From Bacteroidales bacterium (lineage in GTDB: Bacteria > Bacteroidota > Bacteroidia > Bacteroidales > UBA932): DNA of 40,028 bases. The stretch covers positions 1-40,028 of the forward strand of contig JAFVVN010000005.1 in the NCBI GenBank assembly GCA_017502125.1. Direction: 5' to 3'. A program made the translations under genes and the position numbers. Shown here piece after piece: positions 17,610 through 38,048 of this stretch; the stretch's first letter is position 1; the number at the start of each line of letters is the position of its first letter. Below the pieces are notes generated by a model. It saw only the letters and a list, made by a program, of their open reading frames with translations, searched no databases and was not told the DNA's origin.

Positions 17610-17680
17610 GTATTTTATTGAAATACAAGTATTTAAGTAAGATTGTTTTCTTTCTTTTGTAAGACGATAGTTGTTATGTT

Positions 17681-17714
17681 TTTGTTAGTCACTGCTCATA
17701 CAACCCTACCTTTG
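17681..17714 (+). promoter_or_regulatory. Promoter of the exported-protein gene series
   Basis: TTTG (17681-17684) and TACCTTTG (17707-17714) are separated by 22 bases, close to the Bacteroidota spacing. The start codon of the DUF3244-like gene is 36 bases beyond the -7 box. The genes from 17751 to 24765 all run the same way with short gaps, so this may be the main promoter. Confidence 0.6.
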
Positions 17715-17750
17715 AGCCTGAAAACATTTTAATAACTAATCTCAATCATT

Positions 17751-18137: not shown

Positions 18138-18155
18138 CCTTTAAAATAAATAGAA

Positions 18156-18782
18156 ATGAAAAAGATAATTGTTTTAGTAGCATTGACAGTAATGTCGTGC
18201 TTCGCATATTCTAATATGGCTTTTGCACAAATCAAATATGGAACCAATGGTATTCTTCTTGGAAATGTTAATCAGAGGTATGCTCATTATGCAATAACTG
18301 CTGCATTGAACGGAATCTACTTCCAGCATACGAATAATCGTTTTTTTCAGTTGGATGTGGCACCCACCGGTGCACCAAGACTTGCAGGACATAATAATCA
18401 GATCGTGTTTTATAATTCGGCTACTAGTGCATACAATTCGATACAGGTAAGTCAAGTACTAAATTATTCCGATGCAAGGGCCAAGACTGGAGTACGGAAT
18501 TTTAAAAGTGGAATAGATGTTATTAAACGTCTCAGACCTGTTTCCTATAATTTTATCGGAAACCAAAAGAGGAATGCGGCCTCGAATCAGTATACCGGCA
18601 GTAATGTTGAGATAGGTCTGCTTGCGCAAGAACTTGAAGAGGTGCTTCCAAATTTAGTGTTCACTGATGACGAGGGAAGAAAACTTGTTGACTATGTTTC
18701 TTTGATTCCTGTTTTGATAGATGCCGTACAGACGCTCCAGCAGGAAGTGGACATGCTTAAGTCGAAAGCAGTCATAAAATAA
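18156..18782 (+). CDS. Secreted protein with S74 intramolecular-chaperone domain
   Basis: The product has 208 residues. A signal peptide (cleavage likely after AFA, residue 24) precedes a short beta-rich part. The C-terminal half is a peptidase S74 chaperone domain: SDARAKTGVRNF near 108 with the conserved Ser-Asp, IKRLRPVSYNF, IGLLAQELEEVLPNLV near 158, VDYVSLIPVLIDAVQTLQQEV, then a terminal coiled coil. In phage tail spikes this domain drives trimer assembly and then cuts itself off. Here it has a Sec signal and no phage neighbours, so it is a cellular surface or periplasmic fibre-like protein. Substrate or ligand is unknown. Confidence 0.8.
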   Translation: MKKIIVLVALTVMSCFAYSNMAFAQIKYGTNGILLGNVNQRYAHYAITAALNGIYFQHTNNRFFQLDVAPTGAPRLAGHNNQIVFYNSATSAYNSIQVSQVLNYSDARAKTGVRNFKSGIDVIKRLRPVSYNFIGNQKRNAASNQYTGSNVEIGLLAQELEEVLPNLVFTDDEGRKLVDYVSLIPVLIDAVQTLQQEVDMLKSKAVIK

Positions 18783-18804
18783 CTGATTTATAAGCGAAAG
18801 AGTT

Positions 18805-20622: not shown

Positions 20623-20639
20623 GCGAAAAGAAATCTCCA

Positions 20640-22052
20640 ATGCTATTTAATTCATATACCTTTGCCATTTTTTTTATGGCAGTCTTCATTTTGATGTGGC
20701 TGCCATTGAAAAGGTATAGGTGGGAATGGCAGAATATCGTCATTTTGGTGGCGGGTTATGTCTTTTATGCTTGGTGGGATTGGAGATTTCTGGCTTTAAT
20801 CTTTTTGACTTCTTTGACCAGTTGGGTGTCAGGCCTGCTGATAGAGCGAGCTGTATATCCTAGACTTGTTTCAGGACTTAACATTGCGATCAATATCGGA
20901 ATATTGTTCTGTTTCAAGTATTTTAATTTTTTTATAAACGGGTTCGTCGGTCTGTTCTCATTATTTGGCATATCGATGACGGGATGTACATTAGATGTGA
21001 TACTTCCAGTTGGGATAAGTTTCTATACATTCCAGGCATTGAGCTACTCCATTGATGTATATAGAGGAAGAATCAGAGCCTGTCATGACCCCATAAGTTT
21101 CTTTGCATTCGTCAGTTTTTTCCCAGCTCTTGTTGCTGGTCCGATAGAGCGTGCTCAGAATCTTCTTCCCCAATTTGAATATGAAAAGAATTTTGATTAC
21201 GATGATGCCATAGAAGGGGCTTTCATGCTCTTGTATGGTCTTTTCTTGAAGATTGTGATTGCTGACAGACTGGCTGTATTTGTTGACAACTCATGGAAAG
21301 ATATTGCATCGCTGACTACGGTTCCTGTTCTTATATCAATCATATTTTTTGCTTTTCAGTTATATCTTGATTTCGCTTCGTACTCTGAAATAGCAAAGGG
21401 TATAGGTAGACTTTTAGGTTTTAAAGTCATGACGAACTTCAGGAGACCGTATCAGTCCAGATCCTTTAAAGAATTTTGGAAGCGGTGGCATATATCCCTG
21501 TCGTCTTGGTTTATGGATTATGTTTATATTCCTCTTGGCGGTAATAGGAAAGGTGAAGCCAGGAGATTCATGAATCTTATGATTGTATTCTTTCTAAGTG
21601 GCCTTTGGCACGGATCTTCTTGGACCTTCGTCTTATGGGGAGTCTTGAACGGTTTGTTTGTCTTTGCTGTTGACAGGTTTTTGCGTCCGGACAAATCAGT
21701 GAATTGTATCATTATATTCATATGTTGGGCATTAACCCTAATTTTGTTTAGGTCTCCTGATTTGTTTTCCGCGGCTGATTTCATCAGACATATGTTTATA
21801 TTTAACGGTTTTGAAACATTAAGTACTTATGGACTCTGTTCAAGCGAACTTATATTCTCCATATTTCTGATAGTAGCACTCGTAATGTGCGAAATAATTC
21901 AAGAGAAATATGGAGAATATATATTGAGAATAAAAAATTATAATAATTATATATTCCATTATTTTGCAGCTGTCCTGGTCATAATGTTGATTGTCTTGTT
22001 TGGCAGGTATGGAGTAGGGAACGACAGCGGTTTCATATATTTCCAATTCTGA
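20640..22052 (+). CDS. MBOAT-family membrane O-acyltransferase (AlgI-like)
   Basis: The product has 470 residues with about ten hydrophobic membrane segments. The AlgI/DltB-type pattern is clear: NSYTFAIFF and YVFYAWWDWRFL at the start, LPVGISFYTFQALSYSIDVYRG near 120-140, FRRPYQSRSFKEFWKRWHIS near 265-285, YIPLGGNRKG, and SGLWHGSSWTFVLWG with the conserved His324. Proteins of this group move acyl (usually acetyl) groups across the membrane to an extracytoplasmic sugar polymer. The next gene, 4 bases on, is an SGNH-like partner. No polymer biosynthesis genes are adjacent, so the acceptor is unknown. Confidence 0.9.
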   Translation: MLFNSYTFAIFFMAVFILMWLPLKRYRWEWQNIVILVAGYVFYAWWDWRFLALIFLTSLTSWVSGLLIERAVYPRLVSGLNIAINIGILFCFKYFNFFINGFVGLFSLFGISMTGCTLDVILPVGISFYTFQALSYSIDVYRGRIRACHDPISFFAFVSFFPALVAGPIERAQNLLPQFEYEKNFDYDDAIEGAFMLLYGLFLKIVIADRLAVFVDNSWKDIASLTTVPVLISIIFFAFQLYLDFASYSEIAKGIGRLLGFKVMTNFRRPYQSRSFKEFWKRWHISLSSWFMDYVYIPLGGNRKGEARRFMNLMIVFFLSGLWHGSSWTFVLWGVLNGLFVFAVDRFLRPDKSVNCIIIFICWALTLILFRSPDLFSAADFIRHMFIFNGFETLSTYGLCSSELIFSIFLIVALVMCEIIQEKYGEYILRIKNYNNYIFHYFAAVLVIMLIVLFGRYGVGNDSGFIYFQF

Positions 22053-22056
22053 CATA

Positions 22057-23091
22057 ATGAAAAATAGAGTGAATATCAGGTCAAAGACCTTTTTTGTTTT
22101 TTGTATAGAGTGTATGGCTGTACTTTGTACGGTGATTGCCATTATTTGTGTGATTGATAAGCGCAGAATCTTTGCTTATGATGAATCCAATAATCACACA
22201 GGTAAGCGTTGGGACTATCTATACAGGTATGAGGGTAGAATGTGCATTGACGTGTTGGTGTTGGGAAACTCCCACGCCTATACTGGCTTATTGCCGGAGG
22301 AAATGAGCAGGCGCCTTGGAAAGACCTGTTTTATTTTAGCCTCCCAAGGCAATTATCTGACAGATGCATATTATATGTTGAAAGAAGCCCTTGAAGTGTC
22401 TTTACCGGAATTGGTTGTTATTGAAACTTATCTTATCCGGGAGTATGATCAGAAGAATTTAAAGGCAGGTGATTTAATATGTCAGATACAGAGTTTTGAT
22501 GCAAGACGAAGCAGATGGCAGAAATTCTATTCAACTTTTGAGTTGTTCTCATTTGAAAATGCTCCTTATGCGTGGTCCTCCACATTAAGAAATCATAGTT
22601 ACATTTTTGATAATGTTGATCAGTTGCGATACAATTTTGCTCATCCTCATCCTCCAAAGTATCCCAACGAGCTCTATCTTGGACGTTATATTCGGTTTCT
22701 TACGGGAATAGAACAAGATATTCTTGAAAGATATGATAACGAAGGGGCTCCTGTAGATGGTCGAGAGATGACGGTAAGTACAGACGCATTTAAAGCGATG
22801 GAAAAAATCTCATACCTTTGTAAAGAAAAGGGTATCAAAGTGATGTTTTTGACGCTCCCGATGTATAAAGATCATGTGGGTAATTATGCCGAATGGAAAA
22901 GAAACCTTTCGGGACTGATAGGCAGATATGATTACCCATGGTTAGATCTTCAGTATGATTACAATGATGAGATTTTTGGACCTGAGTGTTTCGAGAATAC
23001 ATATAGAAAGAACCAGCATATGACGGCCACAGGTGCTTTGAGAGCATCTGCATTAGTCTCAGAGTACATAGAATCGATGCTGTTAATATAG
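22057..23091 (+). CDS. SGNH/GDSL-like membrane-anchored acyltransferase partner
   Basis: The product has 344 residues. An N-terminal membrane anchor (about 11-33) places the rest outside the cytoplasm. VLVLGNSHAYTG (66-77) is the block I motif with candidate nucleophile Ser72, ASQGNYLTDAYYM supplies a Gly/Asn block, and His321 (in NQHMTATGA) is the candidate catalytic His. Partners of MBOAT proteins of this type (AlgJ/AlgX-like) complete acetyl transfer to the polysaccharide. In most SGNH enzymes an Asp lies three residues before the His; here that residue is Lys, so the catalytic site may be altered. It follows the MBOAT gene by 4 bases, which supports a working pair. Confidence 0.75.
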   Translation: MKNRVNIRSKTFFVFCIECMAVLCTVIAIICVIDKRRIFAYDESNNHTGKRWDYLYRYEGRMCIDVLVLGNSHAYTGLLPEEMSRRLGKTCFILASQGNYLTDAYYMLKEALEVSLPELVVIETYLIREYDQKNLKAGDLICQIQSFDARRSRWQKFYSTFELFSFENAPYAWSSTLRNHSYIFDNVDQLRYNFAHPHPPKYPNELYLGRYIRFLTGIEQDILERYDNEGAPVDGREMTVSTDAFKAMEKISYLCKEKGIKVMFLTLPMYKDHVGNYAEWKRNLSGLIGRYDYPWLDLQYDYNDEIFGPECFENTYRKNQHMTATGALRASALVSEYIESMLLI

Positions 23092-23130
23092 AATGTATTA
23101 TTTTTGTAAAATTAATAGTTATCAGAGGCT

Positions 23131-23550
23131 ATGAAGAAACTTATATCAGGTGTTTTGATGATTTTGATGTCTACCTCCTGCATCTTTTTCATATGGGATA
23201 CAGAGCCTTCGGGAAAGACAGCGTATTGGTATATTAAGAACTCGACTGATATCCCCTTAAGTGTATCATGGGTGAAAGATACGTCAGAATATCTTTCAGT
23301 TGGAGACTCCCTTTGTATCCAAGGAGGTGGGATGTATCAGCCGCTACATCCACCTCAGTTTAAACATTCCATGAGATTTTATAATATTTATGTTTATGAT
23401 GAGGACGGAAATGAGTTATGCAGATGGGTGGAGGGAGAAATACAGGAAGGTCAGCGAAACATCTATGAAGAAGAATACTGGACCCACTACCGTGACAGTT
23501 TGGATTATATATGGGTCTTTGATATAAAAGAAGAAGATTTTGCCTATTGA
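23131..23550 (+). CDS. Small lipoprotein, unknown function
   Basis: The product has 139 residues with a lipobox at Cys17 (MSTSC). The mature part is beta-rich with many aromatic residues (TAYWYIKNSTDIPLSVSW; YDEDGNELCRWVEGE), an Ig-like look without a family I can name. A TATTTTTG box (23099-23106) lies 24 bases before the start but has no good -33. It is one of several lipoproteins in this accessory block. The stop codon is followed directly, in the same frame, by the remnant described next. Confidence 0.6.
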   Translation: MKKLISGVLMILMSTSCIFFIWDTEPSGKTAYWYIKNSTDIPLSVSWVKDTSEYLSVGDSLCIQGGGMYQPLHPPQFKHSMRFYNIYVYDEDGNELCRWVEGEIQEGQRNIYEEEYWTHYRDSLDYIWVFDIKEEDFAY

Positions 23551-24820: not shown

Positions 24821-25079
24821 GCTGTTTGGAGCCGTTTTCGGGGACCGACAGGCAGAGTTTGGGCTGAAACAGCGCCTGACTGTGCCGGCCGGCATCTTTC
24901 CACCGGATTCAGGGGCGGCGTAAGGCTATCCGGTGCTGACAGGAAAGGTGTCGGGAGAGGGTATCCGGACTTGGGGAATTGGTGTGATTATTAATTTTTT
25001 ACAGATTCCTTACTTTGTATATTGCCATATAATACATATATTTGCGTACTAATGACATTAAAACTAACTGAATTTTTGT
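24821..25079. other. Spacer before the PUL, GC-rich first part
   Basis: 24830-24980 is clearly richer in GC than the genes before it and contains a 12-base perfect palindrome TGCCGGCCGGCA (24883-24894). No gene with support is seen. The last 70 bases are AT-rich and hold the PUL promoter. Confidence 0.5.
25014..25044 (+). promoter_or_regulatory. Promoter of the polysaccharide utilization locus
   Basis: TTTG (25014-25017), a 19-base spacer and TATATTTG (25037-25044) match the Bacteroidota consensus exactly. The start codon at 25080 follows after a leader of about 30 bases. Confidence 0.8.
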
Positions 25080-26663
25080 ATGCATAGACTTGTGGTGGCA
25101 ATTATCAGTTGCACAATGATGATTTCTTGTTTAGGGGGGGGCAGCTCTAACGAAACATCCTGTAAGGTAAGGGTTCCATATTTTTTAGATGCTGAAGGTT
25201 ATCCGGCTCACGTTCATTTAAGATGGGCTGACAATGTAGGTTCTACCTACGATATATACAGGGCAGACGAAAAAGGAAAATTCAGAGTCTGCGCCAGTGT
25301 AAGTGGAAACGAATATATGGACTTTTCGATCGGAAAGTCCGATAATCAGAGAAAATACGTTTATAGGATATGTCCTTCCGGTTTTCCGGTGGATAGTGCG
25401 TCTGCCTTTGAAGTTAAGGCGGATGTTCCTGCTGCGTCCGATTCTGCCCTTCTTGATATGGTGCAGAAATATACCCTCAGGTATTTTACTGATTTTGCCC
25501 ATCCTTCTACAGGTCTGGCACGCGAGCGCAGCAATGATGTCAATGGTGATATAGTTACCACAGGAGGAACCGGTTTCGGACTGATGTCTCTGGTAGCCGG
25601 AGCTGAGAGGGGCTTCATCACCAGGGATAGAGCTCTGGAGATCATAGGAAGAATCGTTTCGTTCCTTGAAGGATGCGAGAGATTTCATGGCGCCTGGGCG
25701 CATTGGTATAATGGAGACACTGGTAAGGTGTTCAGTTTCAGCCAGTATGACAATGGTGGTGACATTGTGGAGACAGCATTCCTTGTGGAGGGTATCCTCA
25801 CGGTAAGGCAGTGGCTGGAAAATTCTCAGGATGAAGCAGGCAAGGCCTTGGCACAGCGTTGTGACAGACTGTGGAAAGGTGTCGAGTGGGACTGGTACAC
25901 CAAGGGAGAGAAATCTCTCTACTGGCATTGGTCGAAGCAGTACGAGTGGAAGATGAATCATAAGCTCAGAGGCTTTGACGAGACGTTCATCACATATGTT
26001 CTTGCAGTTTCATCTCCGACTCATCCGATAGATCCTCAGATATATGAGACTTGTTTCAAGGATTCTCCTACCTATTTCAACGGCAATGAGTACTGTGGGG
26101 TGAAGCTTGATCTCGGAATGGATTTCGGAGGTCCGCTCTTCTTTACACATTATTCCTTCCTTGGTCTGGATCCACGCATGGTCGATGTTGATGGATTCAA
26201 TATGTTCGACCGCAACAGGGCACATAGTCTCATTCACTACAACTACGCAATTGAGAACCCGAAGGGTCACAAGGGACTTGGAGAAGATCTGTGGGGCTTC
26301 ACATCTTCAGATGACCCTCTCGTAGGGTACACATCCCATCATCCGAATACAGACGCAGAAAACGGCACGGTCTCTCCGACTGCAGCCGTCAGCTCCATTG
26401 TGTACACACCGGAAGAGTCTCTGCGTGTAATAAGACATCTTTACTATGACCTCGGTGAGCAGGTCTTCGGAAAATATGGATTCTATGATGCATACAATCC
26501 ATCTATGGTTCATGGACAGCAGGTGGTGAAGAGTTTCCTTGCCATAGATCAGGGACCTCAGGTTGCCATGATAGAAAACTACCGTTCAGGTCTTCTGTGG
26601 AATCTGTTCATGACATGTCCTGAAATTCAGAACGGACTGAAAAAACTCGGATTTACCAAATAA
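25080..26663 (+). CDS. GH144-type (glucoamylase-like PF10091) lipoprotein, copy 1
   Basis: The product has 527 residues. Lipobox MMISC (Cys17) is followed by LGGGSSN; a short Fn3-like domain lies at about 30-115 and an alpha/alpha-barrel catalytic domain at about 120-527. Signature stretches are HPSTGLARERS, TGGTGFGLMSL, RFHGAWAHWYNGDTGK, DNGGDIVETAFLVEGIL, GGPLFFTHYSFLGLDPR and IDQGPQVAMIENYRSGLLW. PF10091 proteins of this kind make up GH144, whose characterised members are endo-beta-1,2-glucanases or sophoro-oligosaccharide-releasing enzymes. It leads the operon, 13 bases before susC. The paralogue at 32145 differs in the N-terminal domain, so one may be endo-acting and the other exo-acting. 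A G8 run just after the lipobox codon is notable. Confidence 0.85.
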   Translation: MHRLVVAIISCTMMISCLGGGSSNETSCKVRVPYFLDAEGYPAHVHLRWADNVGSTYDIYRADEKGKFRVCASVSGNEYMDFSIGKSDNQRKYVYRICPSGFPVDSASAFEVKADVPAASDSALLDMVQKYTLRYFTDFAHPSTGLARERSNDVNGDIVTTGGTGFGLMSLVAGAERGFITRDRALEIIGRIVSFLEGCERFHGAWAHWYNGDTGKVFSFSQYDNGGDIVETAFLVEGILTVRQWLENSQDEAGKALAQRCDRLWKGVEWDWYTKGEKSLYWHWSKQYEWKMNHKLRGFDETFITYVLAVSSPTHPIDPQIYETCFKDSPTYFNGNEYCGVKLDLGMDFGGPLFFTHYSFLGLDPRMVDVDGFNMFDRNRAHSLIHYNYAIENPKGHKGLGEDLWGFTSSDDPLVGYTSHHPNTDAENGTVSPTAAVSSIVYTPEESLRVIRHLYYDLGEQVFGKYGFYDAYNPSMVHGQQVVKSFLAIDQGPQVAMIENYRSGLLWNLFMTCPEIQNGLKKLGFTK

Positions 26664-26676
26664 TTCAAACATAAGT

Positions 26677-29670
26677 ATGAAAAGATTACTATTCGCTTTT
26701 GTGGCTGTTCTCCTTTCTGCTGCAGCTTTTGCACAGGAGACAGTCGATGTAAAGGGAACTGTTCTTGATGAGAACGGCTGGCCTTTGACAGGAGCTTATG
26801 TGCTCGTTCAGGGTACATCAAACGGTACTCTTACCGATCTTGACGGTAACTTTGAAATCAAAGCTCCTAAGAACAGTCTTCTGGAGTTCACATTCATGGG
26901 TTACCTCACACAGACTCTTGCTCCTCAGGCAACAATGAATGTGACTCTCCAGCCAGATGCACTCATGATGGAGGAAGTTGTGGTTGTGGGTTATGGTACT
27001 CAGAAATCAAAAGACCTCACGGCACCTATCGTGAATGTAAAGGGTGATGCTCTTGCAAAGCAGGCGACTGCCAACCCGATGTCTGCCCTTTCAGGTATGG
27101 TCAGCGGTGTGCAGATCACACAGAGCGGTGCTCCGGGAGCAGGTCCTTCCGTAAAGATCCGTGGTGTCGGTTCCATCGGAGACTATGCATCTCCCCTTTA
27201 TGTCGTCGATGGCGCGTTCATGGACAATATAGACTTCCTTGCCAGCAGCGATATCGAGTCCCTCACAGTCCTCAAGGATGCATCTGCAGCGGCAATCTAC
27301 GGTGTGCGTGCAGCAAATGGTGTCATAATAGTAACGACCAAGAAGGGTCAGGCCGGACATGTAAGGGTTACATATGACGGATATGCCGGCGTTCAGGTGC
27401 CTACAAACATCATGAAGCTCACCAACACTGAGCAGTATTGCGAACTCTATAACATGGCATTCGACGGAACTACAGGTTTTGTTCCAAAGAATCCTTCTGA
27501 TTATAAGGCAGATACAGACTGGTATGCGGAACTTGTGAAGCCGGCTGCAACCCACTCTCACTCGGTGGACCTCTCAGGCGGTACCGAGAAGTCCAACTAC
27601 TCTGTCGGTCTGAGCTACTACTATCAGGACGGTATCATGAACTACTGTGAGAATGACTATGACCGTCTTAACTTCCGTGCAAGACTCGACCAGAAGATGA
27701 CAGACTGGCTCAAGGTGGGATTCAATACAGTCATTTCAACCCATAACAAGAAGAACGCTAATTCAGGCGTGTACTATCAGGCATTCGTGAACCCGCCTAT
27801 TTATGGAGTTTACAACGACGAGAATACGGCAGCATATCCGGAGAAGTTCGATTCACCTCAGAACTACGGCTATGGTAACTCTTATGGTAACCCTGTCGCT
27901 TCAGCATATTACAACGACAGCAAGGAGAAGGGAATGAAGACTGTCTTCTCGGTTTATGCAGAAGCTTCAATCATCCCGGAGAAACTCAAGTTCAAGACCA
28001 GCTACAACCTTGACTTCTATTTCTATGATGCAAGAAACTATTCTCCTGAGCATAATGTAGGCGGTTCTCAGGGTAATGCAACTTCCTCATTGTCGAAGAC
28101 ATATGGCTATGGTACATACCATATCATCGATAACACCCTCACTTATTCTGACACAAAGGGTGCCCACTCGTTCACAGCCATGTTGGGTCAGTCGACAAGA
28201 ATGCAGTACAATGCATCACTTACAGGAAATGCAAACAGTGTTCCCGGTTTCGACGAGCAGTCGAAGTATCTCGTGAACGGCTCATACAAGAACCAGAGAA
28301 CTTCCGATGCTGCTTCAAGATACAACGGATTGTCCTTCTTCGCCCGTGGTACCTATAACTACAAGGACAAATATCTTGCAACTGTGACCCTTCGTGCTGA
28401 CGGCAGCTCGAAGTATCAGCAGAAGTGGGGATTCTTCCCGTCTGTAGGTCTTGCTTGGAATATGTCTGACGAGGACTTCATGCAGGATCAGAATGTGTTT
28501 GACTTCCTTAAGCTTCGTGCCAGCTGGGGTATGCTCGGTAACGACAACGTTCCGGCAAACTCTACAAGCATCGTCGGTGCTTCGGGAATCGGTGCTTCCG
28601 GTGTATTTGGAGGAACCGTCCTTGACGGAGTCGGTGCTCAGACAGTGTATCAGAACTCACTCAGGTGGGAAGTCGTGAATGAGGCTAACATCGGTGCCGA
28701 CTTCGCCTTCCTTTCCAACAGACTCTCCGGTGAACTCGATATCTACAGCCGTATCACAGACAATGTGGTGTTCTATGCTCCTGTAGCCACCGGTGGTGGA
28801 GTTGCTACCCTCCTTGCCAACAATGGCAAGGTCCTCAATGCCGGAGTCGAGTTGTCTCTCAAGTGGGCGGATTCCGTAGGCGAGAACTTCCGTTATAACA
28901 TCGGTTTCAATGCCACATTCAACAGGAACCAGGTTCTTGAGCTCAAGGACGTAGACTATATCTCCGGAGCTAATGTGACAGGAGGTTACGCTACAAGAAC
29001 ACAGGTGGGCATGCCTATCGGTGCATTCTGGGGCTACAAGACAGAAGGAGTCTTCGCCTCTGAGAAGGAAGCGATCCTCAGCGAAGTTGCCCAGTCTGAC
29101 AAGAAGGCAGGTTATCTTAAGTATCAGGACATCAACGGTGACAAGGTCATCAATGAGGAGGACAAGACTTACCTCGGATCGCCTAACCCTTGGCTCATGA
29201 TGGGTCTCACATTCGGTTTTGAGTGGAAGAACCTTGACTTCTCGATGGTTATGAACGCCAATATAGGTAACAAGATCCTCAACTCGAAGCGAATGAACAA
29301 GACCGTGTTTGCTGACGGAAACTATGACCTCGATTTCTATAAGAACTGCTGGACACCTGACAGAACGGATACAACCTATCCTTCTCCAGCTGCAATGCAG
29401 AAGACTTCGACGCTCTGCTGCAACGACTTCTTCGTGGAGGATGCATCCATGTTCCGCATTCAGAACATCCAGGTGGGATATACATTCAGAGAAGTGTTCG
29501 GAAAGGGAAGCATCAGACTTTATGCTACTGCACAGCGTCCTCTCTCTCTCTTCGGATATAATGGATTTACCACTGAGATCGGCGGTTCTCCGATCGAGTC
29601 AGGAATTGACGGATCTTCAGTATATCCTATGCAGTCTATTTATACAATAGGTCTCAATCTTAACTTCTAA
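26677..29670 (+). CDS. SusC-like TonB-dependent outer membrane transporter
   Basis: The product has 997 residues. A signal peptide (MKRLLFAFVAVLLSAAAFAQ) is followed by a carboxypeptidase-D-regulatory-like domain (VDVKGTVLDENGWPLTGAYV to about 100), the TonB-contact/plug region (MMEEVVVVGYGTQKSKDLT; YASPLYVVDGAFMDNI; VLKDASAAAIYGVRAANGVI), and a 22-strand barrel ending in IGLNLNF. SusC proteins import oligosaccharides with TonB energy and are closed by a SusD lid. susD starts 5 bases later. The glycan is not readable from the transporter itself. No N-terminal STN domain is present, so it is not an anti-sigma-linked SusC. Confidence 0.96.
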   Translation: MKRLLFAFVAVLLSAAAFAQETVDVKGTVLDENGWPLTGAYVLVQGTSNGTLTDLDGNFEIKAPKNSLLEFTFMGYLTQTLAPQATMNVTLQPDALMMEEVVVVGYGTQKSKDLTAPIVNVKGDALAKQATANPMSALSGMVSGVQITQSGAPGAGPSVKIRGVGSIGDYASPLYVVDGAFMDNIDFLASSDIESLTVLKDASAAAIYGVRAANGVIIVTTKKGQAGHVRVTYDGYAGVQVPTNIMKLTNTEQYCELYNMAFDGTTGFVPKNPSDYKADTDWYAELVKPAATHSHSVDLSGGTEKSNYSVGLSYYYQDGIMNYCENDYDRLNFRARLDQKMTDWLKVGFNTVISTHNKKNANSGVYYQAFVNPPIYGVYNDENTAAYPEKFDSPQNYGYGNSYGNPVASAYYNDSKEKGMKTVFSVYAEASIIPEKLKFKTSYNLDFYFYDARNYSPEHNVGGSQGNATSSLSKTYGYGTYHIIDNTLTYSDTKGAHSFTAMLGQSTRMQYNASLTGNANSVPGFDEQSKYLVNGSYKNQRTSDAASRYNGLSFFARGTYNYKDKYLATVTLRADGSSKYQQKWGFFPSVGLAWNMSDEDFMQDQNVFDFLKLRASWGMLGNDNVPANSTSIVGASGIGASGVFGGTVLDGVGAQTVYQNSLRWEVVNEANIGADFAFLSNRLSGELDIYSRITDNVVFYAPVATGGGVATLLANNGKVLNAGVELSLKWADSVGENFRYNIGFNATFNRNQVLELKDVDYISGANVTGGYATRTQVGMPIGAFWGYKTEGVFASEKEAILSEVAQSDKKAGYLKYQDINGDKVINEEDKTYLGSPNPWLMMGLTFGFEWKNLDFSMVMNANIGNKILNSKRMNKTVFADGNYDLDFYKNCWTPDRTDTTYPSPAAMQKTSTLCCNDFFVEDASMFRIQNIQVGYTFREVFGKGSIRLYATAQRPLSLFGYNGFTTEIGGSPIESGIDGSSVYPMQSIYTIGLNLNF

Positions 29671-29675
29671 GCGAA

Positions 29676-31157
29676 ATGAAAAAGTTTTTAATAGCAATTA
29701 TTGCGATCAGTACCATGCTTGTGACATCTTGTGCGGATTTCCTCAACATCCGTACAGAGGCTTCTATGCCGACTTCAGGTATGGATTATACAAAGGTTGA
29801 AAATATCTTTCAACCTGTAAGTGCTGCGTACGCATCCATGAGACTCAGTGAGGGCAGGGCATTCAATTATGTGAGCGTGATGGGCGTTCCTTCGGATGAT
29901 GATGACAAGGGATCTACTGTTACCGACGGTATCGAGACCAAGGAAATCGACGAGTTTACATTCACTCCTACCAACGGACATATCGATGCCATGTGGGTGC
30001 ATTTCTACGATATGGTCTCATCAGCAAACTATGCTATCGAATCAATGGCCAAGTTTGAGGAGGCACTCTCCGACGAGGGCGCTCTGAAGAAGGTAGCCGA
30101 GTGTCGCGGTGAGGCAAAGGTCATCCGTGCATATGCTTACTTCAACCTTGTGCGTCTTTTCGGCGGTGTTCCTAAGATCGACAGGACAATGACAGCGCAG
30201 GAGCTTGGAAATCTTCCGGCCCTTACGACAGAACAGACTTATGAATTCATCTGCCAGGACCTTGACGATGCAATCGAGGTGCTTCCTGAAAGTTTCACTG
30301 AGAAGGGAAGATACAACAGGTATACAGCCATGGGCCTCAAGTCAAAGGTGGCTCTTTACATGAAGGACTGGAATGAGGCTGCTGCTCAGGCTGACGCTGT
30401 TATCGCTTCCGGCAAGTATGCGCTCATGCCTGACTTCATCGATGCATTCTCAATCGATGGTGAGTATGGCAAGGAGTCTCTTATGGAGATCGGCAGCGAC
30501 GACCTTGGTCAGGTCAGCGGTTCCGCACCTCTCTGCTACTACGGTTTCATCCAGGGTCCAAGAAGTAACTCGCCTTCAAACATGCAGGGATGGGGCTTCA
30601 AGGTTCCAAGCCAGGGACTTGTGAATTTCCTTACTGAAAGAGGCGACGAAAAGCGTCTGGCTGTGACAGTGCTCAAGAGCGGCGAGAACACACCTTATGG
30701 TGATCCAATCCTTGAGACATGTCCTAATCCATACTATAACGGTAAGGTCTGCACACCTTCCACCACCAACACGTTCACCAATAACAGCTACGGCCTTGAC
30801 CACAACATGCGTCTTCTCCGTTATGCTGAGGTTCTGCTCATTTATGCAGAGGCTCTTGTAGAGGGAGCTACCGGTGAGTTCCAGTCTGGAATGTCGGCAG
30901 ATGCAGCTTTGAATATGGTACGTGGCCGTGTCGGCCTTCCGGCTGTCGCTGCAACACGTGAGAGCATATGGGATGAGCGTAGAGCCGAGCTCGCAATGGA
31001 GGATGACCGCTTTTTCGACCTTGTACGTACGGGTCAGGCGGCTACTGTACTTGCGTCAAAGGGATTCAAGGCTAACAAGAATGAGGTATTCCCTATACCT
31101 TCAAATCAGATTCAGGTAAATACTGGTCTTGTAAAGACTCCAGGATATACATATTAA
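29676..31157 (+). CDS. SusD-like surface glycan-binding lipoprotein
   Basis: The product has 493 residues with a lipobox at Cys19 (LVTSC). SusD-family features are the N-terminal ADFLNIRTEA, the helical TPR-type core (AECRGEAKVIRAYAYFNLVR near 147-166), YNRYTAMGLKSKVALYM, and the C-terminal LLIYAEALV, RRAELAMEDDRFFDLVR and NKNEVFPIPSNQI. It forms the hinged lid of the SusC channel and binds the incoming glycan on the cell surface. It lies between susC and the LamG-like lipoprotein gene. Confidence 0.96.
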   Translation: MKKFLIAIIAISTMLVTSCADFLNIRTEASMPTSGMDYTKVENIFQPVSAAYASMRLSEGRAFNYVSVMGVPSDDDDKGSTVTDGIETKEIDEFTFTPTNGHIDAMWVHFYDMVSSANYAIESMAKFEEALSDEGALKKVAECRGEAKVIRAYAYFNLVRLFGGVPKIDRTMTAQELGNLPALTTEQTYEFICQDLDDAIEVLPESFTEKGRYNRYTAMGLKSKVALYMKDWNEAAAQADAVIASGKYALMPDFIDAFSIDGEYGKESLMEIGSDDLGQVSGSAPLCYYGFIQGPRSNSPSNMQGWGFKVPSQGLVNFLTERGDEKRLAVTVLKSGENTPYGDPILETCPNPYYNGKVCTPSTTNTFTNNSYGLDHNMRLLRYAEVLLIYAEALVEGATGEFQSGMSADAALNMVRGRVGLPAVAATRESIWDERRAELAMEDDRFFDLVRTGQAATVLASKGFKANKNEVFPIPSNQIQVNTGLVKTPGYTY

Positions 31158-31194
31158 AATTCATACCATTAACCAATCAAACTTATTTTAAAAC

Positions 31195-32079
31195 ATGAAA
31201 AAGATTTTCTATTTTGCAATTGCGATGTCAATCGCAGTATTCGCATCTTGCGAGAAGCAGGGCGGTAAGGAGGATGAAAAGGAGGCAACAAAGGTAACTG
31301 TTGCTGAGGATGCTCTCGTGCTCCACCTTCCATTCGAGGATGGCTCTGTAGCAGTAGGTGAGGGTGTTACCTTCGCTTCAAAGCAGGGTAAGGCTGATTT
31401 CGTTGAGGGTTTCATCGGAAAGGCTTACACCAACACATCAGGTGATGCTAAGGAAGCTGGTTATCTCAAGTATAACCTTGCAGCGACAAACTGCATCAAC
31501 AGCCTCAAGAGCTTCACTTTCTCTGCATGGATCAAGAGACCTGCTCTCGGTTCTGGTGCATTCTTCTCTGTTAACGGTGGTGAGCACGACTGGGGCAGCA
31601 CAATGCAGTTCTTCTTCGACAATTCAGGTGTAGGCGAGGACGGTGCTACTTACCAGCAGTTCAACGCTCGTATCGACTCTTACAAGGAGGGTGAGGATGG
31701 CAATAAGTTCCAGGCTTCTTGCTGGCCAAACGTTCAGGGTCCTGAGTTCGCAAAGGTAGACGAGTGGTTCCACGTAGTTCGTACTTATGATGCAGCTACC
31801 GGTGCTTGGAAGGTTTTCGTTGACGGCGTTCAGACACACGACGGCGTACACGAGTACGGTGATCCAGCAGCTCCATTCGGTGACCTCGACCTTGCTTCAG
31901 ACACAATGAACGCTCTCTATATCGGTGGTTGGGCAGCCATTATTGACGGTGTAAACAACCAGGATTGGATGTCTTACTTCAACGGTTCACTTGACGAGGT
32001 TCGTATGTACAACAGAGCTCTCACAGATCAGGAGATCGGTCAGCTCTGGCAGCAGGAGAAGCTCATCAATCTTGAGTAA
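31195..32079 (+). CDS. LamG/concanavalin-A-like surface lipoprotein
   Basis: The product has 294 residues. Lipobox FASC (Cys19) is followed by EKQGGKEDEKE, an acidic/lysine stretch like Bacteroidota surface-export signals. The rest is one LamG-type beta sandwich: LHLPFEDG, FTFSAWIKRP, WFHVVRTYDAATGAWKVFVD, LYIGGWAAI and FNGSLDEVRMYNRALTDQEI. It sits in the SusE/SusF position after susD, so I infer a surface glycan-binding protein. Lectin-fold hydrolases share this fold, but I see no catalytic acid motif. Codon use is strongly biased, as for an abundant protein. Confidence 0.8.
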   Translation: MKKIFYFAIAMSIAVFASCEKQGGKEDEKEATKVTVAEDALVLHLPFEDGSVAVGEGVTFASKQGKADFVEGFIGKAYTNTSGDAKEAGYLKYNLAATNCINSLKSFTFSAWIKRPALGSGAFFSVNGGEHDWGSTMQFFFDNSGVGEDGATYQQFNARIDSYKEGEDGNKFQASCWPNVQGPEFAKVDEWFHVVRTYDAATGAWKVFVDGVQTHDGVHEYGDPAAPFGDLDLASDTMNALYIGGWAAIIDGVNNQDWMSYFNGSLDEVRMYNRALTDQEIGQLWQQEKLINLE

Positions 32080-32095
32080 TCCGATTTGCCTTAAC

Positions 32096-32126
32096 AAAGG
32101 TGGAGGGATACCATCTCTCCACCTTT
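32096..32126 (+). terminator. Intra-operon hairpin between the LamG-like and second GH144-type genes
   Basis: AAAGGTGGAG (32096-32105) pairs with CTCCACCTTT (32117-32126), followed by TATAACTT. It lies 16 bases after one gene and 18 before the next. It may be a partial terminator or an mRNA-stabilising 3' end that keeps the susCD-LamG part at higher level. Confidence 0.55.
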
Positions 32127-32144
32127 TATAACTTATATATCCTT

Positions 32145-33779
32145 ATGAAAATCAAGACTATATTATTTTCTTTCTTCCTTCTGTCATTCCTTTCGTGTTC
32201 CGATGAGATCTCGAACGAAGGTGAACTTCAGAAGGCGGTTGTGTTTTCTGCGCATGTCAATGGTGTATCCATGACTGCATCTTCTTCAGTATATGGCCAG
32301 CCGGTGGATGATGTGGTCTTGACCCTGGAATTTTCCACTGAAGTCGATATCGAAAAATTCGATCCGACAGCGATTACCTTTTCCGGTGGTGACCTGGATG
32401 TCTCTTATGGAGAAAGTCACAAGGTGCTTGAACTCAAGCCTGGTGACCGTCTTGCATATTTTAAGAAATATACCCTTTCCATCCTGCCTGTGGAGCAGCT
32501 TGGAATCAATATGGTCGAGTCCTACAGTTACTCGTTCGTAACTTGCTACGACCCTTCTGACAAGTTCGAGAGGATTTCTGATGAGGAGCTTCTCACGCTT
32601 GTCCAGGAGCAGACATTTAAATATTTCTGGGATTATGCACACCCTGTTTCAGGTCTTGCGCGGGAACGTCTCGGATCCGGTGACACCGTCACTTCCGGCG
32701 GTTCGGGATTTGGTGTGATGACAATACCTGTCGGAATAGAAAGAGGATTCATCACCCGTTCGGAAGGTGCTGAACGGATGGCTGTTATCGTTGACTTCCT
32801 TCTCAACAAGGCAGAGCGCTTCCACGGAGCCTTCTCTCACTGGCTTGACGGTGCAACCGGTAAGGCAAAGGCTTTCAGCTCGAAGGATGATGGCGGAGAC
32901 CTTGTCGAGACAGCCCTTCTCATGGAGGGACTTCTGACTGTCCAGCAGTATTTCAATCAGGACAACGAGACTGAAAAAAGTATCCGCGACGGAATCCAGA
33001 CACTTTGGGAAGAGGTGGAATGGACATGGTATCTCAATGGCGGCAAAGCCCTATTCTGGCACTGGTCTCCAAATCATGACTGGGCCATGAACATGCATAT
33101 AAGCGGATGGAACGAAGCCCTGATTGTTTATGTGCTGGCTGCATCTTCGCCCACCTACCCAATATCGAAAGAGGTTTATGACGAAGGCTGGACCCGTAAC
33201 GGAGGCATGAAGAACGGCCGTGAGTACTACGGCGTCAAGCTGCCTCTCGGTCCGGACAGGGGTGGTCCCCTTTTCTTCTCCCACTATTCTTTCCTCGGGC
33301 TTGATCCACGCAATCTCAGCGATGCATATGCGGACTACTGGGAGCAGAATGTTGCCCATTCAAGGATAAATTTCGAGTACTGCAAGGCTAATCCGAAGAA
33401 ATATGCCGGATATGGTGAAGAATGCTGGGGTCTGACGGCTTCAGACATCCCGAAAGGCTACACGGCGAGTTCCCCTTCAAACGACAATGGAACCATCGCT
33501 CCGACTGCCGCCCTGTCTTCCATGCCATATACTCCTGAAGAAAGCATGAAGGCCTTGAGACATTTCTATTATGTTCTTGGAGACCGCCTGTTCAAGGAAT
33601 ATGGCTTCCGGGATGCATTCAACCTTTCAAGCTTCTGGTTTGCTCCGTCATATATCGCAATCGACCAGGGCCCTATCGTCGTGATGATCGAGAACCATCG
33701 TACAGGACTTCTTTGGGACTGTTTCATGAAGAATGAGGATGTCCAGAGGGGACTCACTAATCTGGGATTCACATACTGA
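32145..33779 (+). CDS. GH144-type (PF10091) lipoprotein, copy 2
   Basis: The product has 544 residues. I use ATG 32145 (MKIKTILFSFFLLSFLSC, Cys18) because the in-frame start at 32100 lies within the hairpin and spoils the signal. An N-terminal Ig-like domain (about 25-130) is followed by the catalytic domain. It shares with copy 1 the stretches AHPVSGLARERL, SGGSGFGVMTI, RFHGAFSHWLDGATGK, DDGGDLVETALLMEGLL, GGPLFFSHYSFLGLDPR and IDQGPIVVMIENHRTGLLW. It follows the susCD module. Its different N-terminal domain suggests a different subsite mode or location from copy 1. Confidence 0.85.
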   Translation: MKIKTILFSFFLLSFLSCSDEISNEGELQKAVVFSAHVNGVSMTASSSVYGQPVDDVVLTLEFSTEVDIEKFDPTAITFSGGDLDVSYGESHKVLELKPGDRLAYFKKYTLSILPVEQLGINMVESYSYSFVTCYDPSDKFERISDEELLTLVQEQTFKYFWDYAHPVSGLARERLGSGDTVTSGGSGFGVMTIPVGIERGFITRSEGAERMAVIVDFLLNKAERFHGAFSHWLDGATGKAKAFSSKDDGGDLVETALLMEGLLTVQQYFNQDNETEKSIRDGIQTLWEEVEWTWYLNGGKALFWHWSPNHDWAMNMHISGWNEALIVYVLAASSPTYPISKEVYDEGWTRNGGMKNGREYYGVKLPLGPDRGGPLFFSHYSFLGLDPRNLSDAYADYWEQNVAHSRINFEYCKANPKKYAGYGEECWGLTASDIPKGYTASSPSNDNGTIAPTAALSSMPYTPEESMKALRHFYYVLGDRLFKEYGFRDAFNLSSFWFAPSYIAIDQGPIVVMIENHRTGLLWDCFMKNEDVQRGLTNLGFTY

Positions 33780-33790
33780 TCGGACTGACT

Positions 33791-35569
33791 ATGAAGAGAT
33801 TATTTCTATTGATGGCAGCGGTTGCAATGGCGGCATGTGACACAGTCCGGCCTGCACAGACGACGTATTGCAATCCTTTGGATATGGACTATGCATATAT
33901 GGTCTATAATTCCGACCGCAATCTCTCCTACCGCTCGGGGGCGGACCCTGCAGTCGTGGAGTTCAGGGGAGAGTACTATATGTTCGTGACACGCTCTCAT
34001 GGATATTGGCATTCTGCCGATCTTGTAGACTGGACATTCATCAGGCCGAAAAGCATCTGGTATCCCCAGGGATGCAATGCTCCGGCTGCCCATAACTACA
34101 AGGACTCTCTTCTTTATATGGCAGGTGACCCTTCAGGAGCTATGAGCATTCTATATACAGATGATCCGAAGTCGGGGGTGTGGGAGGCGGTGCCGGCCAT
34201 ACTTCACGACCTGCAGGACCCGGATCTCTTCATCGATGATGACGGACAGGCATATATGTTCTGGGGTTCGTCCAACCTCTATCCGGTCCGTGGAAAGAAG
34301 CTCAATATGAAGGATCGTTTCCTCGTGGAAAGCGAGACCTTCGAGCTGTTCAATACGGACAGCACGGCCCATGGATGGGAGCGTTTCGGGGAGAATCATT
34401 CCGACAGAAACATAAGGGCTTATATCGAGGGTGCCTGGATGACCAAGCACAACGGCAGGTATTATATGCAGTATGGTGCTCCTGGAACCGAATTCAATGT
34501 CTACGGTGACGGAGTATATGTGGCTGATGACCCTATGGGACCCTATGAGTATCAGGCACATAATCCGGTTTCATACAAGCCGGGTGGATTCATGAACGGT
34601 GCCGGACACGGCAGCACTGTCCTGGACCTTGATGGCAATTACTGGCATTTTGCCACAATGTCTCTTTCAGCCATCGTCAATTGGGAAAGGCGTATCTGTC
34701 TCTATCCGACCTTCTTTGATGAGGACGGAATCATGTATTGCGACAATGAATATGGGGATTATCCGCATTATGCACCGTCTCAGAAGGATAAGAAGGGAGC
34801 GTTTACCGGTTGGATGCTCCTCTCGTATGGCAAGCCTGTGACAGCATCTTCTTATGCTGAGGGGGCTGCAAAAAAGGCAGAGGGCTTTTCAGATGCCAAC
34901 AGACCGGTCGTTTCCCTGGATTTCAAGCCGCATAACATTGTTGACGAGAACTGCAAGACCTACTGGCTGGCAGAGAACAACGATGCAGACGAATGGATAT
35001 GCATCGATATGGAGGAAGAATGCGATGTCTATGCACTTCAGATCAACTATTTCGACCACGAGACACAGTTCTACAACAAGGTCGATGGCCTGAGGCAGAG
35101 ATATTTGATTGAGGGGTCTTCCGATGGTGACAGGTGGTTTGTCCTTGAGGACAGAAGCTGGTCTGACAAGGATGCTCCAAATGCATACATCCAGCTTGAG
35201 GAACCGAAGGCTGCGAGATATGTAAGATATAGGAATGTTTCAATAAGTTCTCCTCATCTTGCGATCTCTGATATACGTGTCTTCGGAAAGGGACGCGGTG
35301 AGGCTCCTGCACAGGTGCAGGGACTGGCTGCCGAGCGATATGATGACGGAAAGTCGGTAGACCTGAAATGGGAGGCCGTTGATGGCGCACAGGGTTACAA
35401 CGTGAGATGGGGCATCGCACCGGACAAACTCTATAGCTCCTGGCTTCTTTATGACGATAATGAGCTGACTCTCAGATGCCTTGTGAGGGGTCAGGAATAT
35501 TATATCCAGGTGGAGGCATTCAATTCCAATGGAATATCACCGGTTAGCGAGACGATTTATTTGAAATAG
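33791..35569 (+). CDS. GH43-like lipoprotein with discoidin (F5/8C) and Fn3 domains
   Basis: The product has 592 residues. Lipobox Cys16 (AMAAC) is followed by a five-bladed GH43-like propeller (about 25-345). The catalytic triad is in place: Asp52 (SGADPAVV), Asp143 (LQDPDLFIDDDG) and Glu213 (YIEGAWM). An F5/8 type C carbohydrate-binding domain spans about 348-490 (WICIDMEEECDVYALQINYF; ARYVRYRNVSISSPHLAISDIRVFG), and an Fn3 domain ends the protein. GH43 enzymes usually remove arabinose, xylose or galactose units, none of which is part of plain beta-1,2-glucan. It starts 11 bases after the GH144-type gene, so it belongs to the same operon. Confidence 0.85.
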   Translation: MKRLFLLMAAVAMAACDTVRPAQTTYCNPLDMDYAYMVYNSDRNLSYRSGADPAVVEFRGEYYMFVTRSHGYWHSADLVDWTFIRPKSIWYPQGCNAPAAHNYKDSLLYMAGDPSGAMSILYTDDPKSGVWEAVPAILHDLQDPDLFIDDDGQAYMFWGSSNLYPVRGKKLNMKDRFLVESETFELFNTDSTAHGWERFGENHSDRNIRAYIEGAWMTKHNGRYYMQYGAPGTEFNVYGDGVYVADDPMGPYEYQAHNPVSYKPGGFMNGAGHGSTVLDLDGNYWHFATMSLSAIVNWERRICLYPTFFDEDGIMYCDNEYGDYPHYAPSQKDKKGAFTGWMLLSYGKPVTASSYAEGAAKKAEGFSDANRPVVSLDFKPHNIVDENCKTYWLAENNDADEWICIDMEEECDVYALQINYFDHETQFYNKVDGLRQRYLIEGSSDGDRWFVLEDRSWSDKDAPNAYIQLEEPKAARYVRYRNVSISSPHLAISDIRVFGKGRGEAPAQVQGLAAERYDDGKSVDLKWEAVDGAQGYNVRWGIAPDKLYSSWLLYDDNELTLRCLVRGQEYYIQVEAFNSNGISPVSETIYLK

Positions 35570-35593
35570 AATCATCAAACAATAATAAGAATT

Positions 35594-37876
35594 ATGAAAA
35601 AGAAACTGTTGATTATCAGTATGTTCTGCGCGGCCCTTGTCGCTTGCTCGGGTCCGAAGAGCGAAATGGACAAGTTCGTCGACGACCTTATGGGCAAGAT
35701 GACTGTCGAAGAGAAGATCGGTCAGCTCAACCTTCCTGTTGCAGGTGATATCGTGACAGGACAGGCTAAGAGCAGCAATGTGTCCGAGCGTATCCGCAAT
35801 GGTGAAGTCGGAGGACTTTTCAACCTCAAGGGTGCGGCCAAGATCCGCGATGTCCAGAGAATTGCAGTGGAGGAGTCCCGCCTGGGTATTCCTATCCTCT
35901 TCGGTATGGACGTAATTCATGGCTATGAGACAATTTTCCCTATTCCCCTCGGACTCTCATGCTCATGGGATATGGAGGCTGTGGAACTGTCCGCACGTAT
36001 TGCTGCCGAGGAGGCCAGTGCTGATGGTATCTGCTGGACATTCAGCCCTATGGTGGATGTTTCACGCGATGCAAGATGGGGTCGTGTGAGTGAGGGTTCA
36101 GGAGAGGATACTTATCTTGGATGCCGTGTTGCAGAGGCTATGGTACGTGGCTACCAGGGACCTGACAAGGAGACTCAGCTCACTCAGGATGATCAGATTC
36201 TTGCATGTGTAAAGCACTTTGCCCTTTATGGTGCACCGGAGGCTGGACGTGACTATAACACAGTGGATATGAGCCATCTGCGTATGTTCAACGAATACTT
36301 CCCTCCTTACAAGGCAGCTGTTGATGCAGGTGCTGCTTCAGTCATGGCGTCATTCAATGAAGTGGATGGAATTCCGGCAACAGGAAACCGTTGGCTCATG
36401 ACTGAGCTTCTCCGCGACCAGTGGGGCTTTGACGGATTCGTGGTGACCGACTACACAGGTATCTATGAAATGATCGACCATGGCGTGGGTGACTTCGAGT
36501 CAGTGAGCGTGCAGGCACTCAAGGCCGGTATTGATATGGATATGGTCAGCGAGGGATTCGTTCAGAATGTGAAGAACGCTCTTGACAAGGGTCTTGTGAG
36601 CATGAAGGACATCGACACTGCATGTCGTCGTATCCTTGAGGCAAAATACAGACTCGGTCTTTTCGAGGATCCGTACAAATTCTGCAGAGAAGAAGATGCA
36701 GCTGCCGAGGTCTACTGCCAGGAGCATAAGGATATTGCGAGAAAGATCGCTTCAGAGAGCTTCGTGCTCCTTAAGAACGAGAATGTCCTTCCTCTCAGGA
36801 AGCAGGGTACAATAGGTCTTATCGGTCCTCTTGCCGACACTCGCAGCAATATGCCGGGAACCTGGAGTGTGGCAGCTCGTCTGGATGTTCCTAAGACCAT
36901 CCGTGAAGGTCTCACAGATGCAGTCAAGGGCAAGGCGAAGGTGCTTTATGCAAAGGGTTCCAACCTTGTTTCTGACTATGACCTTGAGATGCGTTCGACA
37001 ATGTTCGGCCGTGAACTCGGAAGAGACAACCGCACTGATGCTCAGCTTCTCAACGAGGCACTTGCTGTTGCACGTCAGTCTGATGTGATTGTGGCTGCTC
37101 TCGGAGAGTCTTCAGAGATGAGCGGTGAGAGCTCATGCAGGACAGATCTCGGCATTCCGGATGTTCAGCAGAAGCTCCTCAAGGCTCTTGTGGCAACAGG
37201 AAAGCCGATCGTCCTTGTTCTTTTCAATGGTCGTCCGATGACACTCAACTGGGAGGCTGATAATGTTCCGGCAATCCTCGATGTATGGTTCGGCGGCAGT
37301 GAAACCGCAGATGCTCTGGCTGATGTTCTCTTCGGAGATGTCAACCCTTCAGGTAAACTGACGATGTCCTTCCCTAAGAACGTGGGTCAGGTTCCTCTTT
37401 ACTATGCTGCAAAGCACACAGGTCGTCCTCTTCATGAGGGACGCTGGTTCGAGAAGTTCCGCTCGAACTACCTTGATGTGGACAATGACCCTCTCTATCC
37501 GTTCGGATATGGTCTCTCATACACCACATTCGAGTACAGTCCTGTTTCAATCAGCTCGACAGAGGTTGCACAGGGCGGTTCGCTCACAGCTGAAGTGACA
37601 GTCAGGAATACCGGTAAATATGCTGGAAAGGAGGTTGTCCAGATGTATCTCCAGGATGTTGTAGGAACAACCACCCGTCCGGTTCGTGAGCTCAAGGGCT
37701 TTGAGAAGATCTCTCTTGAGCCTGGCGAAAGCAGGACAGTCACATTTGAGATAACTCCGGAACTCATGAGCCACTACAATTCAGCACTTGAATTTGTCGC
37801 TGAGCCGGGTGAGTTCATCGTTAGCGTAGGTCCTGATTCACGCACAAAGAACTCAGCATCGTTCATCCTGAAATAA
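35594..37876 (+). CDS. GH3 beta-glucosidase lipoprotein (BglX-like)
   Basis: The product has 760 residues. Lipobox ALVAC (Cys18). The GH3 TIM barrel has LGIPILFGMDVIHGYETIFP, FSPMVDVSRDARWGRVSEGSGED, KHFALYGAPEAGRDYN and GFVVTDYTG with nucleophile Asp286. The second domain has AALGESSEMSGESSCRTDLG, the usual acid/base region, and a C-terminal Fn3-like domain (GGSLTAEVTVRNTGKYAGKE). It would release glucose from short oligosaccharides. With GH144-type partners, sophorose and sophorotriose are the expected substrates. It closes the operon, 24 bases after the GH43-like gene, and is followed by a terminator. Confidence 0.93.
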   Translation: MKKKLLIISMFCAALVACSGPKSEMDKFVDDLMGKMTVEEKIGQLNLPVAGDIVTGQAKSSNVSERIRNGEVGGLFNLKGAAKIRDVQRIAVEESRLGIPILFGMDVIHGYETIFPIPLGLSCSWDMEAVELSARIAAEEASADGICWTFSPMVDVSRDARWGRVSEGSGEDTYLGCRVAEAMVRGYQGPDKETQLTQDDQILACVKHFALYGAPEAGRDYNTVDMSHLRMFNEYFPPYKAAVDAGAASVMASFNEVDGIPATGNRWLMTELLRDQWGFDGFVVTDYTGIYEMIDHGVGDFESVSVQALKAGIDMDMVSEGFVQNVKNALDKGLVSMKDIDTACRRILEAKYRLGLFEDPYKFCREEDAAAEVYCQEHKDIARKIASESFVLLKNENVLPLRKQGTIGLIGPLADTRSNMPGTWSVAARLDVPKTIREGLTDAVKGKAKVLYAKGSNLVSDYDLEMRSTMFGRELGRDNRTDAQLLNEALAVARQSDVIVAALGESSEMSGESSCRTDLGIPDVQQKLLKALVATGKPIVLVLFNGRPMTLNWEADNVPAILDVWFGGSETADALADVLFGDVNPSGKLTMSFPKNVGQVPLYYAAKHTGRPLHEGRWFEKFRSNYLDVDNDPLYPFGYGLSYTTFEYSPVSISSTEVAQGGSLTAEVTVRNTGKYAGKEVVQMYLQDVVGTTTRPVRELKGFEKISLEPGESRTVTFEITPELMSHYNSALEFVAEPGEFIVSVGPDSRTKNSASFILK

Positions 37877-37893
37877 CAGGAATCCAATAACTG

Positions 37894-37926
37894 ACAAGAG
37901 GCTGACCCAAAAGGTCAGCTTCTTGT
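37894..37926 (+). terminator. Terminator at the end of the PUL
   Basis: ACAAGA-G-GCTGACC (37894-37907) and GGTCAGC-T-TCTTGT (37913-37926) form a stem with one internal mismatch and a 5-base loop CAAAA. The sequence after it (GTGTTTATAA) is moderately T-rich. Confidence 0.7.
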
Positions 37927-38048
37927 GTGTTTATAAGGATTGCACCGGGCTGATGATATAAAAATATAGCCATTCCTTTGATTACCAAAAAGAATAGCTA
38001 TTTTAGGTTACGACGTAGGGGTTCAGGAAGGTAACATAAGGAAAACCA

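Follow-up and report, generated by a model that had tools for sequence, protein, structure and literature searches.

A Bacteroidales operon with two GH144 enzymes and a GH43 enzyme, predicted to take up and digest decorated beta-1,2-glucan

Introduction

Polysaccharide utilization loci (PULs) with enzymes of glycoside hydrolase (GH) family 144 are an abundant type in Bacteroidota and have been assigned to beta-1,2-glucan (Lapebie 2019, PMC6499787). The excerpts of that survey, which like those of the other papers cited here cover part of the text, describe a sulfatase as an addition in marine loci and do not mention GH43. A cluster of Maribacter dokdonensis 62-1 combines one GH3 gene, two GH144 genes and susCD with sulfatase genes, GH43 again going unmentioned in the excerpt, and its GH144 proteins are about 50% identical to the C. 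pinensis enzyme (PMC8072126). SusCD-GH3 loci with GH144 have also been found on fosmids (PMC6550366). Here we describe an operon in a stretch of 40,028 nucleotides (the window) from a Bacteroidales bacterium of lineage UBA932 (assembly GCA_017502125.1, contig JAFVVN010000005.1). It shares one GH3, two GH144s and susCD with the Maribacter cluster; it has a GH43 gene and no sulfatase. The combination of SusCD, two GH144s and a GH3 is an already known locus type, of which the operon is a further example.

An initial annotation had read the operon as a complete PUL for beta-1,2-glucan. We consider it probable that the operon serves the uptake and digestion of a beta-1,2-glucan that bears side sugars. 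The part of this reading that concerns the backbone is much firmer than the part that concerns the side sugar.

Results

The seven genes of the operon lie on the + strand between positions 25080 and 37876. They encode, in this order, GH144a, SusC, SusD, a LamG lipoprotein, GH144b, GH43 and GH3, and are separated in the open reading frame (ORF) table by 13, 5, 37, 65, 11 and 24 bases. The adjacent susC and susD genes, with carbohydrate-active enzymes (CAZymes) on the same strand, identify the locus as a PUL.

GH144a (25080-26663, +; PF10091, 3.2e-69) is a putative beta-1,2-glucanase with an additional N-terminal domain. GH144b (32145-33779, +; PF10091, 6.8e-79) is a putative surface endo-beta-1,2-glucanase; the GTG at 32100 opens its ORF, yet the ATG that starts the signal peptide lies at 32145 and is taken here as the start. 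Over the catalytic domain, both proteins match CpSGL, the founding GH144 member and endo-beta-1,2-glucanase of Chitinophaga pinensis (chains 5gzh and 5gzk), with 1.6e-126 for GH144a (5gzh) and 1.5e-146 for GH144b. GH144b is 62.1% identical to the solved chain 4gl3, 54.7% to CpSGL, 51.6% to BDI_3064 and 51.5% to GH144a. BDI_3064 (5z06) is presumably the exo-type GH144 enzyme of Parabacteroides distasonis. GH144a also matches it (2.9e-114), but the alignment begins only at residue 190 of that chain, so that endo or exo action of GH144a is not deduced from it. An exo-type GH144 enzyme that releases sophorose has been described (PMC11842490).

The residues D224, D228, E231, E301, F354 and Y417 of GH144a are invariant in 19/19 aligned rows, GH144b included. 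Counted on the alignment, their counterparts in CpSGL are the clan residues E211, F268 and Y330 and the acidic residues D135, D139 and E142. A Glu/Phe/Tyr set defines the clan of beta-1,2-glucanases, and the acidic residues are needed by CpSGL (PMC12102758). CpSGL and BDI_3064 carry the same catalytic residues as GH144b. We placed both proteins in a tree of 104 of the 105 collected rows, which was built by a quick method without bootstrap, drew long-branch warnings and leaves out GH162, GH189 and GH192-194. Both fall on the CpSGL/BDI_3064 side, split with a support of 100 from XcSGL and its kin. GH144a belongs to a nine-row clade (100) that is grouped with the BDI_3064 clade at just 89, while GH144b stands in a separate nine-row clade (99). 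The similarity to CpSGL, the clan residues and the tree bear out the GH144-type catalytic domains named in the initial annotation. Its proposed phylogeny was made, and the outcome that would have told against it, a place for both proteins outside GH144, is ruled out by the clan and catalytic residues and the tree position. NCBIfam gave no match for either PF10091 protein or for GH43.

In GH144b the lipobox is followed by Cys-Ser-Asp-Glu. Comparison of the N-termini showed that GH144a, GH43 and GH3 do not have this motif. Ser-Asp-Glu after the lipobox Cys is a surface-export signal; GH144a is a probable lipoprotein without surface-export motif.

The GH43-type lipoprotein (33791-35569, +; PF04616, 9e-26) consists of a propeller followed by F5/8C and fn3 domains and is a predicted side-chain exo-glycosidase. 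D52, D143 and E213 are invariant in 41/41 aligned rows; we take them to be the Asp/Asp/Glu catalytic triad of GH43, with the roles that such residues have in the family. The PF04616 match, these residues and the fold matches together describe a five-bladed propeller with an Asp/Asp/Glu triad. With its invariant triad and GH43 fold, the enzyme looks active. The structural model has a predicted local distance difference test (pLDDT) score of 88. Its top fold match is BT_3662 (5msx; E 2.9e-24), the match covering 495 columns and extending past the propeller. By sequence, solved GH43s match weakly, with entries other than BT_3662 at the head, and comparison with them yielded no subfamily assignment. 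BT_3662 is an alpha-L-arabinofuranosidase and belongs to subfamily GH43_34, which includes beta-D-galactofuranosidases as well; it acts on the pectin rhamnogalacturonan II (RG-II) (PMC8939339).

To define the relatives of GH43, a collection of 84,980 genomes was scanned with six peptide patterns and the best 80 of 140 candidates were kept. Of these, 68 (L003-L070), some cut by contig ends, match at an identity of at least 43% in the best segment and constitute the GH43 clade; the remaining 12 are distant GH43s. GH144 is encoded in the locus of 43/68 clade members, on the same strand in 39 of these 43. Where a clade locus has 9 kb or more on both of its sides, GH144 is present in 33/41. None of the 12 distant GH43 loci does, 7 of them having at least 9 kb. 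Of the 25 clade loci that lack GH144 we checked 14, most of which have long flanks, and found PF10091 elsewhere in the genome in 11. Ten neighbours scanned in nine such loci were mostly housekeeping or unrelated proteins.

The same tie is seen across the phylum. In a survey of 395 genomes that scored up to three GH43 candidates per genome, PF10091 was found in 72/75 genomes with the GH43 (E 1e-100) and in 53/320 without it; counted by genus, the proportions are 39/42 and 32/129. The Fisher tests on these co-occurrences count related genomes as independent. GH43 and GH144 are thus inherited together. Our search of open-licence PubMed Central (PMC) text, without supplements, found nothing that links GH43 to GH144 or to beta-1,2-glucan.

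A PF00884 sulfatase is present in 37/68 clade loci, adjacent and on the same strand in 29, with locus neighbours named by BLAST to single representatives. It also occurs in the clade loci of Sphingobacterium (such as L015-L018), which we regard as non-marine. No sulfatase appears among the Pfam results for the window; four PF00884 matches lie on other contigs of the genome.

The clade loci show several further features. A metallophosphatase (calcineurin-like phosphoesterase) is found in the GH144/GH43 loci L019, L023, L026, L031 and L036, and an esterase-like alpha/beta-hydrolase in 13/68 loci. Such genes would be in keeping with periplasmic glucans that carry phosphoglycerol or succinyl groups. 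The loci of L036, L037, L038, L042, L062, L063, L065 and L068 each contain an additional, divergent GH43 from the clade, suggestive of two specificities. Between L023 and L026, a contig labelled Candidatus Margulisbacteria and a Prolixibacteraceae contig are nearly identical in GH144 and GH43; the former is probably misbinned.

Within the genus, 7/37 genomes, our own included, contain PF10091, with two copies each that are 7.08-7.15 kb apart. All seven have the core GH144a-SusC-SusD-LamG-GH144b, with GH3 on the same strand at either end; in G004, G022 and G023, GH3 is truncated where the contig or the stretch examined ends. GH43 is an accessory of this operon. It occurs in 2/7 loci, upstream of GH144a in G006 and before GH3 in the window, and was not detected at E 1e-60 in the other five genomes, several of which are incomplete metagenome-assembled genomes (MAGs). 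In G455, a close relative whose Mfd is 84% identical, GH3 directly follows GH144b, and the GH43 is on a different contig (L006). By GH43, the closest named kin are Bacteroidales MAGs from ruminant ceca, L003 from yak and L004 from goat; nearer records may have been left out. Between the window and L004, the operon is 82-90% identical at the DNA level, except for GH144a (73%) and GH144b (58-73%). The backbone enzymes are thus more diverged than the transporter. The similarity stops at the operon borders, indicating a module set in different surroundings. The low values for the GH144 genes (58-73%) look as if the backbone enzymes had been exchanged.

The GH3 enzyme (35594-37876, +) is a lipoprotein beta-glucosidase of the BglX type (NF011678, 912 bits, cut-off 666) with GH3 N, GH3 C and Fn3-like domains. 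It matches the solved chain 5xxl with 1170 bits over nearly its full length. We take 5xxl to be BT_3567, the sophoro-oligosaccharide enzyme of B. thetaiotaomicron.

SusC (26677-29670, +) is a TonB-dependent outer-membrane transporter with CarbopepD_reg_2 and Plug domains (TIGR04056, OMP_RagA_SusC; 826 bits, cut-off 368). SusD (29676-31157, +; PF07980/PF14322, SusD_RagB and SusD-like_3) is a glycan-binding lipoprotein. Its nearest solved chain is 6gcz (9.8e-43), and it is also near 7kv4; both are presumed to be SusDs that bind beta-glucan (laminarin). The LamG (concanavalin-like) lipoprotein (31195-32079, +; PF13385, Laminin_G_3, 5.1e-16) is a probable surface glycan-binding protein, with counterparts of 30-43% identity at the same place in the operons of six genus-mates. 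Its model (pLDDT 83) is a beta-sandwich whose top fold match is domain 4 of the arabinanase AbnA. Of the others among the best 50 of 435 matches (E up to 0.001), nearly every one is either a lectin-like receptor-binding domain or a protein containing such a domain, with 10-16% identity and the fold alone in common. A role as an enzyme was ruled out, as Laminin_G_3 is the sole domain above the Pfam cut-off and the gene has the position of a binding protein.

Bacteroidota promoters follow the consensus TTTG - 19 - TAnnTTTG. A promoter-like TTTG-N19-TATATTTG (25014-25044, +; pattern search) ends 35 bases 5' of GH144a and is the only match from 17.7 to 39.3 kb. The window contains 4 matches against 0.86 expected, and at least 4 occurred in 1/100 shuffles. 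An intrinsic terminator-like site (37894-37926, +) with a 14-pair stem, 7 pairs being G-C, lies 3' of GH3, and another site with 14 pairs (37966-38001, -) is oriented towards the next gene, which is convergent. There are 16 such sites in the window against 10.7 +/- 3.7, so the count alone shows no clear excess. The ORF table, Pfam and the pattern search agree with the one-strand operon with short gaps and a promoter ahead that was described initially. The term complete was too strong: Pfam and partly NCBIfam confirm the gene set, but no regulator is found beside the operon. Two regulator queries had no match in the window, and in the own genome (2.34 Mb in 85 contigs, of which the window is contig 40; 78% complete) a piece of the LuxR-type regulator encoded upstream of GH144a in L004 gave a best match of 74 residues on a different contig. 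PULs do not all have a linked regulator.

Elsewhere in the window, the stretch 15893-23550 is low in G+C (about 37-40%). It encodes a TPR protein, a small Peptidase_S74 protein of the tail-spike chaperone type (18156-18782), a 605-residue protein with an HHELAH motif and without Pfam match, and an MBOAT acyltransferase (20640-22052).

Discussion

Based on the surface-export motif of GH144b, which GH144a, GH43 and GH3 do not carry, we propose a model in which the glycan is cut outside the cell, imported and finished in the periplasm. GH144b would cut the glucan backbone at the surface. SusD and the LamG protein would hold the pieces, which SusC would import. In the periplasm, GH43 would remove a side sugar other than glucose, a furanose such as arabinofuranose or galactofuranose being the likeliest candidate, GH144a would shorten the backbone further, and GH3 would release glucose from sophoro-oligosaccharides. 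The cell locations are predicted from signal motifs and the linkage of the backbone from characterised GH144 relatives; the side sugar is suggested by the family to which GH43 belongs and by its neighbours, and the order of the steps is a proposal.

Sequence comparison gives good support for a beta-1,2-glucan backbone as the target. On this point the initial annotation holds, given the GH144 membership and the genus core with GH3. It left out the tie to GH43, which speaks for a decorated glycan and not a plain one. The excerpts of PMC6550366 describe no action of GH43 enzymes on beta-glucans, and the simplest interpretation is that the natural substrate may be decorated with a GH43-labile sugar. 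The initial remark that GH3 enzymes preferring sophoro-oligosaccharides occur in Bacteroidota agrees with the closeness of this GH3 to 5xxl. A cyclic, periplasmic or proteobacterial origin of the glycan is a guess; in open-licence PMC text, we found no paper that ties Bacteroides PULs to cyclic glucan.

Several observations weigh against a decorated beta-1,2-glucan. GH43 is just 21% identical to BT_3662, with a root-mean-square deviation (rmsd) of 8.1, which makes the arabinofuranosidase a lead and not an assignment. The GH92 control also co-occurs with GH43, though less (58/75 against 80/320), and the tie between GH43 and GH144 therefore partly reflects CAZyme-rich genomes; it persists within GH92-positive as well as GH92-negative genomes. 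Three MAGs of ruminant Bacteroidaceae (L008, L009 and L010) hold the GH43 (66%) with no PF10091 match in the genome. BT_3567-type GH3 enzymes hydrolyse sophorose and laminaribiose at comparable velocity (PMC12369401), so GH3 leaves the linkage unfixed. Finally, the GH35 in a GH144 locus of Bacteroides xylanisolvens is a beta-1,2-galactosidase, inactive on beta-1,2-gluco-oligosaccharides (PMC11739564), so that enzymes encoded beside GH144 may have targets other than glucan or glucose.

It is possible, though unlikely, that the operon scavenges plain beta-1,2-glucan or periplasmic glucan and that GH43 is a hitch-hiking hemicellulase outside the pathway. The absence of GH43 from five of the seven genus loci and genomes is in line with this, as is G455, where no GH43 stands between GH144b and GH3. 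Close to the clade GH43 of this relative (L006) is another GH43, which is of the xylosidase type, carries a GH43_C2 domain and speaks for a hemicellulase. Hitch-hiking is at odds with the joint travel of GH43 and GH144 across the phylum. It is also at odds with the two different places of GH43 in the same operon, in G006 and in the window, which indicate repeated recruitment rather than chance.

We regard it as improbable that these GH144s cut another glycan with 1,2-linked hexoses, such as a beta-1,2-galactan. To our knowledge few GH144 members have been characterised, which leaves room for such a target, and the GH35 of B. xylanisolvens offers a precedent (PMC11739564). Against it, both GH144s retain the clan and catalytic residues found in the glucan-specific enzymes, GH144b shares more than half of its residues with CpSGL, and GH3 is of the BglX type. 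Uptake and digestion of a beta-1,2-glucan with side sugars thus remains our preferred reading.

Tentatively, this reading may be extended beyond the operon. The GH43 clade, often together with a sulfatase, could be a module that removes side chains from a widespread, undescribed beta-1,2-glucan with furanosyl (or other GH43-labile) and often sulfated branches. Such a glycan would be eaten by Bacteroidota of gut, soil and sea, and not just by marine ones.

The well-bounded operon would place feeding on beta-1,2-glucan in Bacteroidales that are related to members of the order from ruminant guts. A conserved GH43 clade without a close solved relative accompanies GH144 through the phylum, and the glycan that shaped these common loci may therefore differ from the plain polymer used in assays.

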